This document shows positions 6,065 to 26,757 of a DNA stretch of 36,057 nt, in pieces. The stretch covers positions 1-36,057 of the forward strand of contig JASJCX010000005.1 in assembly GCA_030065255.1 (NCBI GenBank). Direction: 5' to 3'. A program made the translations under genes and the position numbers. Source of the stretch: Calothrix sp. MO_167.B42 (lineage in GTDB: Bacteria; Cyanobacteriota; Cyanobacteriia; Cyanobacteriales; Nostocaceae). A model generated the notes under the pieces. It saw only the letters and a program-made list of their open reading frames with translations. It had not been told where the DNA came from and made no database searches. How positions within the stretch are numbered: position 1 is the stretch's first letter; each line of letters opens with the position of its first letter.

Positions 6065-6176
6065 GGCGTTGCTGAATGGAAGTATGAATTTACATTTTTC
6101 GATATTATTGAAGAACCATTCTTTGCGCCTTTGCGTCTTTGCGCGAACTTAATTCATTCCTGGATTCAGCAACGCC
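6065..6176. mobile_element. 112-bp MITE-like element with 8-bp target duplication
   Basis: The ends are inverted: GGCGTTGCTGAAT on the left and ATTCAGCAACGCC on the right. The element is flanked on both sides by the same 8 bases, CGGATTCC (6057-6064 and 6177-6184), the signature of a transposition event. It has no coding capacity, so it must have been moved in trans by an unidentified transposase. The uninterrupted target is seen in the related repeat at 8387-8404. Related ends occur at 86-130 and at 23394-23407. Confidence 0.85.
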
Positions 6177-11829: not shown

Positions 11830-12996
11830 TTAGCGTGTTGGAGCATTATCAAAAGCTCTTGCTATGGCATTCCACGCCAGCTTACGTTGGAAATTGGAAT
11901 TCAGTGGTAAAGGACGTACTGCTTCACTATCAGCACGAGGAGCGTAATCTGAAAGCCAAGTTACCTTATCGCTTAAGCCCCAAGTTAATACTGCAATCAC
12001 TGCTGGTTCATCGAGAACCGTTGAGAGATAGTCTTCGTAAACCTCAGCAATAATGCGATCACGATTATCAATATCAAAGGCTAACACGTCATCTGTTACA
12101 TCTAGTTCAGTAATAAAAATTTTTAGACCAAGACTGGCCACATCAGCCAAAAATTGCCGGAATTTTTGGGCATTAAAATAGGGTTTACCATCACCCAGAA
12201 GATGAGATTGAATACCTAAACCATGAATAGGGGTACCTCTAGATTTTAAACGCTCTAAAAGGTTGAGAATCGCTATTCTTCTTGCCTCATCTCTAGGGGT
12301 GTCATACTCAAAAGCTGTTTCATTGTATACTAACAAAGCATTGGGATCGGCTTCAGCAGCGACTCGAAAAGCAAGTTCAATGTAATCCGGACCTAACAAT
12401 TGGAGCCAAGGTGCTTGACGTAAGCCATCAGCACGTCCATCATCTATATCAATAGCCTCATTGACTACATCCCAAGAATGCATCTGACCAGCATAATGTT
12501 GAGTTACAGTGGCAATATGTTCGGTGAAAATTCCTTCAGCATTTTGCTGATTCACGATTTCATCAAACCATTCAGGTAATACCAGATGCCAGACTAAAGT
12601 GTGGCCTCGAAACAACATATTGTGAGTGCTGGCAAAATTAGCTAACCAATCACCTTGGGTAAAATCAAACTGATTGCGGATACCTTGCACAAATCCCCAC
12701 TTGAGTTCACCTTCGGGAACTAACATGCCACACTCTTGAATCAAACTATTTGCCAAGCCAGTATCTACTGACAGGGTTTCGTAATTAGCTGCTGCTCCAT
12801 AAATCAATCCCTTAGCAGCAGCACGCTGGCGAAGACTGGCTGTACCAACTACGGTAAAGTCTTGATTTGTTTCGCCCAGGGCTCGCATATTGCCGCCATA
12901 ATATGTATGTATGAATTTGTTGCTCATGCCTATAGTAGCTAAAGCACCTAAACCTAACCATAGAGAACGCCGCCTAGTAATTCGGTTATTAAACAT
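11830..12996 (-). CDS. Secreted GH10 glycoside hydrolase (endo-beta-1,4-xylanase-like)
   Basis: A 388-residue family GH10 enzyme. Visible GH10 landmarks are RGHTLVWH (130-137), the acid/base glutamate in WDVVNEAID (Glu180), the histidine in GIQSHLL (residue 265) and the nucleophile glutamate in FITELDVTD (Glu297). The W...WGLSDK segment (about 339-344) closes the substrate cleft. The catalytic set is complete, so the protein should be active. The N-terminus ITRRRSLWLGLGALATIG resembles a twin-arginine signal, implying export in folded form. No carbohydrate-binding module is present. The start codon lies inside the end of the preceding glycosyltransferase gene (8-bp overlap), so the two are translationally coupled. 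Its place in a synthesis cluster suggests trimming or release of the polymer made there rather than plant xylan degradation. That is an inference, and the substrate may differ from xylan. Confidence 0.92.
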   Translation of the reverse strand: MFNNRITRRRSLWLGLGALATIGMSNKFIHTYYGGNMRALGETNQDFTVVGTASLRQRAAAKGLIYGAAANYETLSVDTGLANSLIQECGMLVPEGELKWGFVQGIRNQFDFTQGDWLANFASTHNMLFRGHTLVWHLVLPEWFDEIVNQQNAEGIFTEHIATVTQHYAGQMHSWDVVNEAIDIDDGRADGLRQAPWLQLLGPDYIELAFRVAAEADPNALLVYNETAFEYDTPRDEARRIAILNLLERLKSRGTPIHGLGIQSHLLGDGKPYFNAQKFRQFLADVASLGLKIFITELDVTDDVLAFDIDNRDRIIAEVYEDYLSTVLDEPAVIAVLTWGLSDKVTWLSDYAPRADSEAVRPLPLNSNFQRKLAWNAIARAFDNAPTR

Positions 12997-20640: not shown

Positions 20641-21957
20641 TCACTTTATAAATGCAAGAGATTGGATTTGAATGATAAATAATTTTCTCGTTTCTTGATG
20701 CAAAATATTACTGAAGAATGAAGCAAATGCTTGTGCCACAACAGTAGCAATCGCAGCACCAATTCCTCCATAGGTAGGAATCAATAATATATTTAAAATC
20801 ACGTTAGTAACTGCCCCAATTAAAGTTCTACGTAGGGAAAGATGTGTTAAATTTTCTGCAATAAACCAAGGTGATGTCGCCACACCCATAAAAACAAATA
20901 AGGAAGCCCAAATATGAATTGATAAAACTGTCTTGGCGGCTATATATCCATTACCAAATAAAAGGGTAATTATTGTCCCTGATAAAAATGTCATCGGTAT
21001 AGCGATGGCAACGGAAAGTAATACCATCAAACGTAGTAATTGTTTAATGCGCCGATTATATAGCCTTGCATCATTTTCCTTGGCTTCATAAATTGAGGGA
21101 GAAACAGAAGCCACAATGGCTGTGGGGATAAAATACCAAATTTCAGAAATACGAGTTGCTGCTGAGTAAAAACCTACAGCACTATCATCAAGCATTTTTC
21201 CCAGCATAATCTGGTCTATTTTCATGTAAATCATGATAGTGAAACCAGAAAGAATCAAAGGCCAACTTTCTTTCAGGAGAGTTTTAGCAAGGGAAGAACT
21301 CCAACGCCATAATCGAATCGAAAAACCCTTGAGCCTATATGCAATTGCTAAACCAATTCCAGCTAGGCTAATCTCTGCCAATGCTGCCCAAACAAAGGCA
21401 ATTAATGGGGCTTGCATCTGAATTAGAGAAATTTTAACTAGGGCAATAACTATAAAAGCGATATTTCTGGCAAAAACCGCATATTTTGACTGTACCTGTG
21501 ACTGAAACCAAAAATCAATCGTCTCAACAGCTTCAATAACTCCTGCTACTCCTAAAATAGATACTATCCAAATTGTGAGAATATCATCCTGATGCAAGAA
21601 GACTATACAACTAACTGCTAATAATAGTGATGCAAAACCACCTAGCACTTTTAGGCAAAAAGCTGTTCCTAATATCTTCTCTTTGTTAGATGAATCATTG
21701 ACCAAATCCCGAATCACAATATTGTCTAACCCTAAAGTGGCAAGGGGACTGAATAGAGTTATAAAGGCAATAGCATAGTTATAAAGACCATATTGTTGTA
21801 CTCCTAAGTAACGTGCTACCCATATTACTACAATCAGATTTATACCCATGCGAAGAAGCCTATCGGCAAACAGCCAACCAGTATTGGCAATGATTGCACG
21901 CAATTTAGAACCAGATTGAAATAATGATAATTTCTGAATTTTCAACTTATTTAGCAT
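20641..21957 (-). CDS. Wzx-type oligosaccharide flippase
   Basis: A 438-residue MOP-superfamily polysaccharide transporter with about 12-14 helices. The N-terminal NTGWLFADRLLRMGINLIVVIWVARYLG and QYGLYNYAIAF segments are characteristic. It would flip the undecaprenyl-linked repeat unit across the inner membrane. The start is ATG 21957 (MLNKLKIQ); a GTG at 21972 would add five residues. The first 30 codons plus about 60 bp of leader are present a second time at 23110-23262 as a dead fragment, showing that this 5' end took part in a tandem duplication with the adjacent FemAB-like gene. It is 65 bp downstream of that gene. Confidence 0.93.
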   Translation of the reverse strand: MLNKLKIQKLSLFQSGSKLRAIIANTGWLFADRLLRMGINLIVVIWVARYLGVQQYGLYNYAIAFITLFSPLATLGLDNIVIRDLVNDSSNKEKILGTAFCLKVLGGFASLLLAVSCIVFLHQDDILTIWIVSILGVAGVIEAVETIDFWFQSQVQSKYAVFARNIAFIVIALVKISLIQMQAPLIAFVWAALAEISLAGIGLAIAYRLKGFSIRLWRWSSSLAKTLLKESWPLILSGFTIMIYMKIDQIMLGKMLDDSAVGFYSAATRISEIWYFIPTAIVASVSPSIYEAKENDARLYNRRIKQLLRLMVLLSVAIAIPMTFLSGTIITLLFGNGYIAAKTVLSIHIWASLFVFMGVATSPWFIAENLTHLSLRRTLIGAVTNVILNILLIPTYGGIGAAIATVVAQAFASFFSNILHQETRKLFIIQIQSLAFIK

Positions 21958-22022
21958 GGGCAAAATTTGCACGAGTGTGACTGATTTATCAAATATAAAT
22001 GGATAAAAATAGTAATATTATG

Positions 22023-23108
22023 CTATGAGATAGATGCTGGCGATTTTTGAGTGAGAAAGTATTGATATTCCTGTCTATGTGTATTCATCTCTTGTCTTCC
22101 TTCAGCTGCAATTATTCTTAAATTATTCTGCCAAGCTTCTAAGTTGCAGATATTAGTAGGTTGAAATTCACCTAGTACTTGTTGAGCAAAATTGAATGCA
22201 ATTTTGATTTCTCTAAGTTTTTCTGCTGTGTCAGGAAAACGAATTAGATATTTTTTAAGCCACCCATTCACAGAGTTTTTCCAGGTTCCTCCTATTCCAC
22301 TAATTAATCTTGTATGTGTTGCGTAGTGCCACTTATAAATTTCTCTGCCAATTAAAAAATCGAATTCTTGATGTTTTTGCTCATAACTATTTTCTAGAAT
22401 TGATAGCAGCATTAAACGACCAGGAGAATATGAAGCATACTGGGGATCGTATGTGGGTATCCAATAGTAAAAGCGACCTTGCCACAAAGCTCCTAAATTG
22501 GCAGCTACTAATGTCTCTCCGGCGGAAAAACTAGAAACTACAAGTAGACCTTGTTTAGCGAGTTCTATAAAGAAATTGACATTGCTGGGTTGAGCAAATA
22601 ACTTGTGAAAAGAGTGGAACTGTGTTGACTTAAATTTAATACAAAAATCAAATACTTCTTCTCGGGTATCTTGCCAGCGAAAAGTTATACTTCCCACATC
22701 TTTTGCTAGTTTTCTTTGACATCGCCGTGCATCCGCTAACAGCTTAGAACGCCTTGATTTTACATGGGCAGTAAATTTATCCCAAGTTGCAAAATTTGTC
22801 CAATCAATTAAAGGAGAAGTGATATAAGGTACAAATAAATTTTGGTCTAAGCATTCTTGTGTGCTGACAACTCCTTGACATGCTGAGTCTATATAAGAAA
22901 CTGCTTTGCTAGTTTTGAATGTTTGTAAAGATGGAACAGGCTCAAAAAAATCTATAAATTGCCATCCAGTAATGGGTTCTCCATCTGGGAATGTAGGTAA
23001 TCGCCATACCCTATCTTGCAGTAAAAAGTCTTCTAGATGCAATTGTACATCTGGAAAATATGCTTTGTTCAGTGCTTCAAGAAATGGGGCAGAAGAATAG
23101 ATATTCAT
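22023..23108 (-). CDS. FemAB/GNAT-like acyltransferase, copy B
   Basis: A 361-residue protein of the BioF2-like/GNAT transferase group, which includes FemAB-type enzymes. The conserved part is SPGRLMLLSILENSYEQ, then EFDFLIGREIYKWHYATHTR, the usual PGxLL...EFDFL-G-E-YK pattern of this fold. The start is ATG 23108 (MNIYSSAPF), the position matching the paralogue. A TTG at 23132 would read out of frame through a dead flippase fragment. The bases just before the ATG come from that fragment and contain no clear ribosome site. It may transfer an acyl, acetyl or aminoacyl group to an amino sugar of the repeat unit. The substrate is unknown. Confidence 0.85.
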   Translation of the reverse strand: MNIYSSAPFLEALNKAYFPDVQLHLEDFLLQDRVWRLPTFPDGEPITGWQFIDFFEPVPSLQTFKTSKAVSYIDSACQGVVSTQECLDQNLFVPYITSPLIDWTNFATWDKFTAHVKSRRSKLLADARRCQRKLAKDVGSITFRWQDTREEVFDFCIKFKSTQFHSFHKLFAQPSNVNFFIELAKQGLLVVSSFSAGETLVAANLGALWQGRFYYWIPTYDPQYASYSPGRLMLLSILENSYEQKHQEFDFLIGREIYKWHYATHTRLISGIGGTWKNSVNGWLKKYLIRFPDTAEKLREIKIAFNFAQQVLGEFQPTNICNLEAWQNNLRIIAAEGRQEMNTHRQEYQYFLTQKSPASIS

Positions 23109-23262
23109 AAAACAGCCAACTAGTATTTGCAATAATTACACGCAGTTGATAATGAGATTTTAAAATTATTATTCTTTAAATTTTCAACTTATTTAGCATG
23201 AATAAAATTTGCACAAGTGTGACTGATTAATCACATATAAATGGATAAAAAATCGTAATATC
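23109..23262 (-). pseudogene. Dead 5' fragment of the Wzx flippase gene
   Basis: Read on the minus strand, an ATG at 23199 begins a segment matching the first 30 codons of the intact flippase (21957 down to 21868) without length change: MLNKLKI, then a TAA at codon 8, then LRVIIANTSWLF. The preceding 60 or so bases also match the flippase leader (ATCCATTTATAT and AATCAGTCACACT). Similarity stops one base before the ATG of FemAB-like copy B. This is the scar of a tandem duplication. Confidence 0.88.
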
Positions 23263-23414
23263 TTCTTACCGGTATAACCCTTTAACTGCCTATAAATGAA
23301 CGTACAAAGAACAATCTGCGCTGCATAAATACGGGATAATATAACAGTCCAAATCATTGAAATTTCGTGACTGATTGGGCTAAATTATCCCATGATTCAG
23401 CAACGCCTCATAAT
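23263..23414. other. Insertion with one GGCGTTGCTGAAT end, no gene
   Basis: About 145 bp present only between FemAB-like copy A and the dead flippase leader; the equivalent position after copy B lacks it. One boundary, at 23407, is GATTCAGCAACGCC, matching the end of the elements at 86-130 and 6065-6176. No matching inverted end is seen near 23265. It is probably a truncated mobile element. A 37-codon open frame on the minus strand (from about 23360) has no recognised family. Confidence 0.5.
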
Positions 23415-24521
23415 CTAATTTGATGAGTCAGAGCTCCACGATTTTTGAGTCAGAAAGTACTCATACTCTTGTTTATGTGTATTTATATCTTGCTTTATTT
23501 GTGCTGCAAGTGCTTTTACATTCTTCTGCCAAACGTTGAAGCTATTAACATTACTAGATTGCCATTGACTGAGTATTTGTTGAGTATAATTGAACATAAT
23601 CTTCGCTGCTCTGAGATTTTCTGCTGTTTTGGGAAAATTAATCAGATGTTGCTTAAACTGCTCATTTACAGAACTTTTCCAGCTTCTTCCCATAGGAGAA
23701 ATTAGTCGTGTATGGGTTGCGTAATACCACTTATAAACTTCTCTACCGACTAATAAATCAAACTCTTTGTGTCCTTGACGATAACTTTCTTCCATAGTCG
23801 AATGCATCAATAAACGACCGGGAGCATAAGTATTATATTCGGGATCGTATACTGCAATCCACGAGTAAAAACGGTCTTCCCAAACAGCGCCTAAATCCAC
23901 AGCCAAAAATTTGTCACCGATGGAAAGACTTGAAACTACTAACAAACCACTATTAATCAGCTCTTGAAAAAAGGAGATATTGGTAGTGTCGGTAAACATA
24001 TCTTGGGAGTTAGCAAACTGTGTAGCTTTCATTTTCATGCAGAAGTCGAAGGCTCCTGGCCTAGTGTCATTCCAGATAAATTTTACCGGACCTACTTCCT
24101 TTTCTAACTTGCGTTTCCGCCGTTGAGAATCACGATAAATCTTGGGGTTGTGGGATTTTACATGGGCGAGAAATTCCTCCCAAGAAGCAAAGTTAGACCA
24201 ATGGATAGAAGGAGAAGCTGTATAAGGCACAAATAAATTTAGATCAAACCACTCTTGAGCCGTAACTACTCCATGACACGCCCAGGGAATGGAAGGCACT
24301 ATTTTTCTAGTAGTTTTTGTCGTAGTGGTTTTTGCCTGTGAGAACGGGATCGGCTCAAAAAAGTCAATAAATTGCCAATCAGTAATAGGTTCTCCATCTG
24401 GAAATGTCGGTAATCGCCATATCTGACCTTGGAGTAAAAAGTCTTCTAGATGCAATTGTACCTCTGGAAAATAGGCTTTATTAAAGGCTGCAAGAAATGG
24501 AGTAGAAGAATAAATATTCAT
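23415..24521 (-). CDS. FemAB/GNAT-like acyltransferase, copy A
   Basis: A 368-residue paralogue of the gene at 22023-23108, similar along its whole length. Shared segments include HLEDFLLQ, WRLPTFPDGEPIT, the PGRLL region (APGRLLMHSTMEESY) and EFDLLVGREVYKWYYATHTR. It starts at ATG 24521 (MNIYSSTPF), 13 bp after the tyrosine-kinase gene, so it is tightly coupled to it. Differences include a threonine-rich insertion near residues 65-75 (AKTTTTKTTRK). Retention of two intact copies suggests different acceptors or donors. Acyl or aminoacyl transfer to the glycan or its precursor is an inference from fold and neighbourhood. Confidence 0.85.
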   Translation of the reverse strand: MNIYSSTPFLAAFNKAYFPEVQLHLEDFLLQGQIWRLPTFPDGEPITDWQFIDFFEPIPFSQAKTTTTKTTRKIVPSIPWACHGVVTAQEWFDLNLFVPYTASPSIHWSNFASWEEFLAHVKSHNPKIYRDSQRRKRKLEKEVGPVKFIWNDTRPGAFDFCMKMKATQFANSQDMFTDTTNISFFQELINSGLLVVSSLSIGDKFLAVDLGAVWEDRFYSWIAVYDPEYNTYAPGRLLMHSTMEESYRQGHKEFDLLVGREVYKWYYATHTRLISPMGRSWKSSVNEQFKQHLINFPKTAENLRAAKIMFNYTQQILSQWQSSNVNSFNVWQKNVKALAAQIKQDINTHKQEYEYFLTQKSWSSDSSN

Positions 24522-24534
24522 ATGACTTTAGTAT

Positions 24535-26757
24535 TTATATATCTGTGTTTGATAAAGAAGTTTTTTTCTTAAAGGGAAAATCTTGCCATGGATTCCTTGA
24601 CTCCACAGACTCTTGGGAGAAATAAAGGTAACTGTCAGGCTCACGATTTTTACTGACATCATTCACGACCATACCTAAAACATTCTGACTAGATTGTTTT
24701 AACAACTCTTTGGTCGTATTCGCACTATTCCATTCAACTATGCCAGGACGAACCACTAATAACATACCATCAGTTAGACGACCTAAAGTAGTCGCATCTG
24801 CTGTTCCCAGAATTGAATTAGTGTCAAAAATAACAAAGTCATAATCGCGGATAAAACCTTGAACTAATTCGGCCATCCGCCGGGAATTAAGCAGTGATAG
24901 TGGATTTGGTGGTAAAGTTCCCGATGGAAGTATAAATAGGTTCTGCATTACCCGTTCTATTGGTATATTAATATTTACTTGATTAGTGATTAAGTTACTT
25001 AGACCAACCACATTCTTCAAGGAAAGATCCCAAATATGATGCTGGGTGGGATGACGCATATCAGCATCTACTAGTAAAACTTTATTACCCATTTGAGCCA
25101 TTGCCATGGCTAAGTTAGCAGCAACAAAGGACTTTCCTTCCTTGGGTACTGAGCTTGTAACTACAATACTCTTTAGCTGTTGATCGGAAAGAAAATTTAA
25201 ATTAGATTGCAATATCTGATATGCATCACCAATCGGAAACTGTGATATGTCTCTGCCAATTAATTTGGGAATCTGTTCCTCTGACTCTGATTTCCATAAC
25301 CAATTCTGCTGATGATTATCACTGAATGAGGGAATAATCCCCAGTAGGGTGTATTGAAATAGTTCTTTGGCTTCTTGAACCGTTTTCAGGGATTGGTCAA
25401 TTAAATCTAATGCTAAGGCCGCAATTACACCTAATAAAGCACCAAAAACTATCCCACCACCAAGAATCAGTTTCTTACGAGAAGCTGTGGGCCCATCGGG
25501 TATAAAAGCAGGAGAAATTACACGCACATTACCAATATTTTGGTTCTCGGCCAACTCCACTTCTTTGAGTTTCTTTAATAATGATTCATAACTTCCCTGG
25601 GATGCTTGCAATTTCCGCTCTAGTTGTCTTTGAGTCTGCTCTAGTTTAGGTAACTTTTTTGCCCTTTCTTTATAAATAGCCAAATTTTGAGATAGTTTAT
25701 CAATTTTTTGCTCTAAAGCAAGATGCTCTGTTTCAGTACGTGCAAATTCTTGGAGCAAGTTTTGTCGTAAATCTCCAATCTGGAGATTCTTCAGCCCAGG
25801 CTGATTTTGACCAACGACTTGTTCTGTCTGCTGTGTTAATAAACTGTTAAGAGTAGAAACTTTTTCTTTTAAATTTAAGACTGTAGGATGTTCTGGTTGA
25901 AACTTAATCAGGGCTAATTGCAACTGGCTTTGCGCTTCCTTGAGCTGAGTCAAAAGTTGCTGAATTCCTGGTGTTTGACTCAGTGAAGCAGCGGTTACTG
26001 TTTGTTGCGAGTCAATACTTGCTTGACTTCGTAACTTTCCTAATTTAGCACCCACAAAAGACAATTGGGCTTGATTTTCGGATATCTGCTCTTCTAATTT
26101 TGCGATCGCTTGTACCCCTGCAGTTTCTTCTTCTTGCAAGGAAATCACTTTATTGTCTTCTTTAAATTTACGCAGGTTTGACTCAGCTTGTCTTACAGAT
26201 ACCTCTGCTTTTGGTAGTTGATCTAATATAAACGTTCGGGCTGAGGCTGCTTCAGCTCGATTAGCTTGGATATTTTGTTGAATATAAATTTCGATCAGTT
26301 TATTAACAATTCTCGCAGCCTCAACGGGATTTTCATGGGTATAAGAAATTTGTAAAACATCTGTACCCTTAGCACCCGTTGCGCTTAAACTATCCGCTAA
26401 TGCTTGGACAGAAAGGGGCTCCCCTGTCTCTTCTTTGAGTCCTAATTCTGCAATGGTTTTGTCAATAACTGGACGGGATAGAACAATTTTTGCTTGAGTC
26501 TCTAGAGGATTACCCTGTAAAGTTAAAGGCTCTATTTTCCCTAGTGTTTCCCCTAATCCTGTAAGTGAAGAAGTACGATTGGTTTTGATTAACAAACTTG
26601 CTTGTGTCTGATAGCTCTGTTTTAGGGAAAACGCTAATAGTGATGTCAGGGTAATAACCATCCCGAATACACTGAATGCAGCTACCCGACGGCGTTGCAG
26701 TATTAACCAGTATTTGTAAAAATTTATTTCTTCTATATTGTCTCTAGATTCTATCAT
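24535..26757 (-). CDS. Polysaccharide co-polymerase/tyrosine autokinase (Wzc-like)
   Basis: A 740-residue fusion of a chain-length regulator and a BY-kinase. A cytoplasmic N-terminus is followed by helix 1 (about 26-46), a Wzz domain (to about 165), a long periplasmic coiled coil (about 185-405) and a GNVR-like segment (NIGNVRVISPAFIPDGP, 408-422). Helix 2 is at 429-452. The kinase domain has Walker A SSVPKEGKS (535-543), Walker A' VLLVDADMRHP (560-570) and a Walker B region FVIFDTNSI (641-649). The last reads DTNS where DTPP is usual. The C-terminal tail has only two tyrosines (710 and 712) rather than a long tyrosine cluster. It is the first gene of the leftward cluster and controls polymer length with the Wzy-like protein. 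No cognate phosphatase gene is nearby. Confidence 0.92.
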   Translation of the reverse strand: MIESRDNIEEINFYKYWLILQRRRVAAFSVFGMVITLTSLLAFSLKQSYQTQASLLIKTNRTSSLTGLGETLGKIEPLTLQGNPLETQAKIVLSRPVIDKTIAELGLKEETGEPLSVQALADSLSATGAKGTDVLQISYTHENPVEAARIVNKLIEIYIQQNIQANRAEAASARTFILDQLPKAEVSVRQAESNLRKFKEDNKVISLQEEETAGVQAIAKLEEQISENQAQLSFVGAKLGKLRSQASIDSQQTVTAASLSQTPGIQQLLTQLKEAQSQLQLALIKFQPEHPTVLNLKEKVSTLNSLLTQQTEQVVGQNQPGLKNLQIGDLRQNLLQEFARTETEHLALEQKIDKLSQNLAIYKERAKKLPKLEQTQRQLERKLQASQGSYESLLKKLKEVELAENQNIGNVRVISPAFIPDGPTASRKKLILGGGIVFGALLGVIAALALDLIDQSLKTVQEAKELFQYTLLGIIPSFSDNHQQNWLWKSESEEQIPKLIGRDISQFPIGDAYQILQSNLNFLSDQQLKSIVVTSSVPKEGKSFVAANLAMAMAQMGNKVLLVDADMRHPTQHHIWDLSLKNVVGLSNLITNQVNINIPIERVMQNLFILPSGTLPPNPLSLLNSRRMAELVQGFIRDYDFVIFDTNSILGTADATTLGRLTDGMLLVVRPGIVEWNSANTTKELLKQSSQNVLGMVVNDVSKNREPDSYLYFSQESVESRNPWQDFPFKKKTSLSNTDI

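Follow-up and report, generated by a model that had tools for sequence, protein, structure and literature searches.

A wzx fragment between two acyltransferase genes in a Calothrix exopolysaccharide locus: a probable tandem duplication scar with a mosaic history

Tandem duplication that truncates a neighbouring gene at the new joint is a general mechanism in bacteria. In the literature searched, at the level of titles and the beginnings of abstracts, no description was found of a scar or an acyltransferase pair like the one reported here. The locus lies in a window of 36,057 nucleotides, the whole stretch of DNA that was analysed, from the draft genome of Calothrix sp. MO_167.B42 (5.54 Mb, 384 contigs, 80% complete), and its joint is known from this one draft genome. 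An exopolysaccharide locus is encoded on the minus strand and comprises, in this order, a Wzc-type tyrosine autokinase or chain-length protein (24535-26757, recognized by domain and profile matches), two acyltransferase genes named U (upstream) and D (downstream), a wzx-type flippase gene, glycosyltransferases and a Wzy-type gene. Beyond the kinase, on the side away from U, lies the ligA gene. The polysaccharide locus also encodes a protein of glycosyl hydrolase family 10 (11830-12996; PF00331, 3.4e-84). The region between U and D, which had been described in an earlier note as the result of a duplication, is a real and fairly ordinary scar, with a history more complex than first proposed.

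Both acyltransferase genes are intact and are read on the minus strand. U (23415-24521, copy A of the earlier note) encodes 368 amino acids and D (22023-23108, copy B, with its ATG at 23108) encodes 361. Aligned over 366 columns, the two proteins are identical at 58% of the amino acids (E 1e-163). They matched PF13480 (Acetyltransf_6) with E-values of 1.4e-25 and 5e-26, corresponding to 90.5 and 92 bits for a cut-off of 22; in both of them, an N-terminal region and the C-terminal part fall outside the stretch matched by this GNAT-type family. The FemAB label previously given to the pair found no support in these databases: PF13480 was the only Pfam family detected (E up to 0.001) and no FemAB model of NCBIfam was matched at E up to 0.01. 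Neither protein scored above the cut-off of any NCBIfam model. The AlphaFold2 model of D, obtained from 4 rows, displayed a mean pLDDT of 39, too low for use, and the profile search against solved structures gave two hits only (E 0.39 and 0.78).

The copy of the wzx start was evident from the pairwise alignment. On the minus strand, positions 23110-23251 aligned with 21868-22009 over 142 nt, ungapped and with 82% identity (117/142), and the blast match extended to 22018/23262 at 84%. The local alignment score was 175, far above the mean of 19.8 and the maximum of 33 found for 1000 pairs of dinucleotide shuffles. This is in good agreement with the match of about 150 bp to the flippase leader and first 30 codons that had been claimed. 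The intact wzx-type gene (20641-21957; PF01943, PF13440) is preceded by a leader (21958-22018) delimited by the alignments and by blast. In the copy, the leader (23200-23262) was identical at 46 of 52 positions of its ungapped part. The dead codons 1-30 (23110-23199, ATG at 23199) were identical at 71 of 90, showing identity beyond the leader too. The coding part was found to be unchanged in length, and its translation revealed a TAA stop at codon 8 (23176-23178), both as reported before. At the joint, codon 30 of wzx is followed by one base and then by the ATG of D; the similarity thus ends exactly where it had been placed, and the 5' flank of D is made of flippase sequence. When the fragment was searched in its own draft genome (80% complete), only itself and the wzx start were matched. 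A TTG at 23132 was considered as an alternative start of D and rejected, as the ATG is the start used in U and in the relatives.

The arrangement with a single acyltransferase gene was found in four close relatives (G002, G003, G023 and G684), in which the kinase, one acyltransferase gene and wzx stand in a row, and the synteny check proposed earlier was therefore positive. In G002 and G003 ligA is on the same contig, as in the window, so that their site corresponds to the window site; in G023 and G684 it is located elsewhere. In a further genome (G001), no other ORF of the window was matched in the 20 kb around ligA, the contig starting 2.4 kb before this gene. When 60 relatives were searched at E 0.001, the acyltransferase family was present in 6, counting the own genome, with weak matches only in G012. 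It was also rare in a wider search at 1e-40 (3/388 genomes of the order and 4/386 of the phylum, own included).

Silent divergence between U and D was estimated with a codon model written for this analysis, and it was found to be uneven along the genes. Over codons 1-54 the dS value was around 0.67-0.68, and over the part starting with codon 246 it was 0.65, while codons 55-245 were saturated. A single dS for ends and middle was rejected (2dlnL 22.8, p 1.8e-6), with the limits 55 and 245 having been chosen once sliding windows had been inspected, and the two ends agreed with each other (p 0.90). A change-point search on third positions delimited the divergent block to codons 57-190, a fit equalled by 0 of 200 permutations; the test with these fitted limits gave p 6.7e-9, a value biased by the choice of limits. 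This block corresponds to 22539-22940 in D (minus strand; change-point and likelihood ratio). The dN/dS values were below 1 in all cases, being 0.36 for the U-D ends and, for the middle compared with G002, 0.27 in U and 0.17 in D. At silent sites, the middle differs by far too much to support the earlier view of U and D as plain products of one duplication. Since silent divergence is uneven along the duplicated unit, duplication alone is not the whole history.

The comparison with G002 points to D as the unusual partner. U was evenly close to this relative over codons 1-245 (dS 0.56 and 0.62, p 0.79), and as a whole (0.67) it was about as far from it as the kinase (0.74) and ligA (0.51), with D and wzx further off. 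Thus, judging from the sequences, the first 245 codons of U look vertical and the middle of D looks foreign. In a 10-row protein tree built from residues 1-285, D was loosely placed on a long branch (0.5 vs 0.18 for U). As U is evenly close to the Calothrix relatives, either the middle of D was replaced or U was converted. No closer donor of the middle of D was detected among 218 genomes of the family, 7 of which gave a match at 1e-6, own included. The best identity to this segment outside its own gene was 55%, and in G797 it was 51% over 87 of 141 residues. Considering the locus and this divergent middle, U and D could be two acyltransferases of different specificity decorating one exopolysaccharide.

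The C-terminal part behaves differently from the middle. About 90 residues are common to U (23418-23687) and D (22026-22289), both on the minus strand, and are largely unlike those of the four close relatives, whose proteins are 316-319 aa long. In the tree of codons 245-290, U and D formed a clade with support of 99/99. Holding U together with G002 and G003 was rejected (p-AU 0.0096, in a test for which the tool warns of long branches). Among U, D, G002 and G023, the informative sites of codons 240-300 favored U+D by 20, against 3 and 3 for the other groupings. In codons 30-210, on the other hand, 25 sites favored U+G002, against 10 and 7. Trees of codons 1-54 and of codons 55-245 left U+D vs U+G002 undecided. 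For these two reasons, the evidence that U and D descend from one gene comes from their C-terminal part, together with the joint and the scar.

Similar ends around a saturated middle would also be expected if U and D were old tandem paralogues with ends homogenised by gene conversion. In such a case one copy would have been lost in G002 and G003, and the scar would be a by-product of unequal crossing-over. A tandem pair does exist in another genome of the family, G034, where two related acyltransferase genes lie at 8438-10907 of L013 with a spacing of about 1.49 kb. This pair resembles U and D in consisting of two adjacent genes of the same kin. It differs in that, within the 4.3 kb that were compared, the repeat is the gene itself, with 999 aligned columns and 76% DNA identity. 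Between the two genes no piece of an adjacent gene was found, the other hits in those 4.3 kb being short repeats upstream of the pair. Moreover, both genes of G034 fall outside the six-row clade formed by U, D and the four relatives (100/100), which indicates that the G034 pair is not the U/D pair. Taking into account that each of the four close relatives has one copy, and that a precise wzx fragment is not an expected outcome of conversion, old paralogy was judged improbable.

A simple decay of the fragment, as had been suggested, was not supported. Its leader and codons 1-7 were identical to wzx at 67 of 73 positions, and codons 8-30 at 50 of 69 (Fisher p 0.0036, the cut at the stop codon having been chosen after the alignment was seen). 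At half the U-D silent clock, which supposes that only the scar drifts freely, 18.2 changes are expected in codons 8-30 and 19 of 69 were observed. For the full U-D clock this part is too similar (P 0.005). In the leader part, 6 changes in 73 were found vs 19.3 expected at half the clock (P 9e-5). The leader is thus below the U-D clock, and one neutral duplication fits only if it has been constrained or homogenised. Three readings are left: constraint on both leader copies, their homogenisation, or a duplication more recent than the divergence of the U-D ends would imply.

Codons 8-30 were hardly closer to their own wzx (50 of 69) than to those of the relatives (48 in G008, 47 in G003, 46 in G002 and 46 in G024). 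This makes allelic integration a serious rival. According to it, the resident locus had the order kinase-U-wzx, and a segment from a related donor, carrying D and wzx, entered the resident wzx at codon 30, so that the fragment would be the resident stump and the intact wzx that of the donor. It would fit the foreign appearance of the middle of D and also the distances to G002, with dS values of 1.08 for D and 1.15 for wzx against 0.67 for U and 0.74 for the kinase. The leader and codons 1-7 speak against it, as they match the own wzx and not those of seven relatives; the C-terminal part common to U and D would also need a further recombination. As codons 8-30 hardly discriminate, only leader and codons 1-7 are left as the firm link between the fragment and its own wzx. 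The similarity of codons 8-30 to the relatives does not refute duplication, because a freely drifting fragment loses its likeness to all wzx genes. Overall, allelic integration was considered rather unlikely, and tandem duplication was kept as the preferred explanation.

A further origin of the joint was also considered, namely an assembly chimera in which two strain variants of the locus were joined. The incomplete state of the genome, with its 384 contigs, and the resemblance of U and D to different alleles in the middle would be in line with it. In addition, an exact word of 29 bases occurs in both genes (23020-23048 and 24433-24461), around 60 bases from the joint, and could mislead a short-word assembler. 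The word, however, lies at codons ~21-30 of D, away from the change-point at codon 57, and no overlap was seen by eye at the joint itself. The stop codon and the 19 changes in 69 positions of the fragment speak for age. The chimera was regarded as improbable, to about the same degree as old paralogy.

The well-kept leader leaves room, as a hypothesis only, for a retained function before D. The fragment could be the regulatory front of D, with the wzx leader and an upstream ORF of seven codons (MLNKLKI-stop) under selection. This proposal is tentative and was given a low likelihood. If true, an accidental duplication would have provided a domain-swapped acyltransferase with a ready flippase-type leader, tying its expression to that of wzx. 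The shared leader was not found before wzx in seven relatives, where 9-17 of 52 positions agreed with wzx and 13-18 of 52 with the fragment; this comparison was ungapped and anchored at the assumed start, a position without a start codon in G023 and G684. Blast of the loci of ten relatives gave no leader match above chance-level words. Scanning 21800-24700 for promoters yielded 11 promoter-like sites vs 10.8 expected, none of them on the minus strand within either leader, and the terminator scan of the same region gave 2 terminator-like sites vs 1.2 expected. When the two leaders were folded as RNA, the z values were 0.55 and 0.39, so that no structure exceeded that of shuffles.

The insertion of about 145 bp behind U, also described in the earlier note, proved to be real but somewhat different in size and nature. 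The extra DNA without counterpart behind D comprises 152 bp (23263-23414), of which 91 bp correspond to a degraded MITE-like element with terminal inverted repeats (23317-23407, plus strand), placed 7 bases downstream of the U stop codon. A spacer of 54 bp (23263-23316), between the scar and the element, also lacks a counterpart behind D, and it gave no match in the 21 genomes searched. The element itself was matched in 13 of the 21 genomes, a count that includes the own genome, where 6 matches were obtained, the element itself among them. When 11 other copies were aligned, terminal inverted repeats were observed, together with 8-base target repeats beside several of them (by eye). In the 23317-23407 copy the target repeats, GAACAATC and TCATAATC, agree in 5 of 8 positions. 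Judging from these sequence features, the element is taken for a MITE: it is short, multicopy and bounded by terminal inverted repeats like other bacterial MITEs, the copy behind U differing from them in being degraded. A second MITE of the same family, one of the 11 copies aligned, with a longer middle, matching ends and, by eye, a clear target repeat CGGATTCC, was observed in the window at 6066-6175, and its terminal 13 bases are also present at 117-129.

Tandem duplication of one acyltransferase gene with the beginning of wzx, followed by mosaic exchange, the stop and the MITE, is considered the best explanation and a probable one. The ancestral unit would have been the kinase-acyltransferase-wzx segment of a Wzx/Wzy-type exopolysaccharide locus. 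Its duplication would have joined codon 30 of wzx to the single base that precedes the ATG of the acyltransferase gene, giving the order kinase-U-wzx'-D-wzx, where wzx' is the truncated copy, with both U and D remaining intact. Afterwards, the middle of D (codons ~57-190, covering the linker and the first part of the GNAT domain) may have been replaced by divergent homologous sequence. Equally possible, a D-like gene may have been duplicated, and recombination with an allele of the Calothrix type may have restored the N-terminal part and middle of U. A stop at codon 8 would have arisen in the truncated wzx, and the MITE would have inserted behind U. D would be translated from its own ATG, keeping the wzx leader as its upstream region. 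In this form, the duplication proposed in the earlier note holds with regard to the single-copy order of the relatives, the C-terminal clade and the leader link, whereas plain duplicates and simple decay found no support.

The locus may serve as an example of how polysaccharide loci could gain a second decorating enzyme, by a duplication with a truncated neighbour and the exchange of one middle. The fragment, having decayed unevenly, is a small case in which the possible reuse of a dead gene's leader before another gene could be tested. Compared with known tandem duplication scars, the arrangement shows the same head-to-tail copies, the partial second gene between them and a novel joint at which no overlap was seen. 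It differs from them in the mosaic nature of the pair and in the good preservation of the leader that belongs to the truncated gene.
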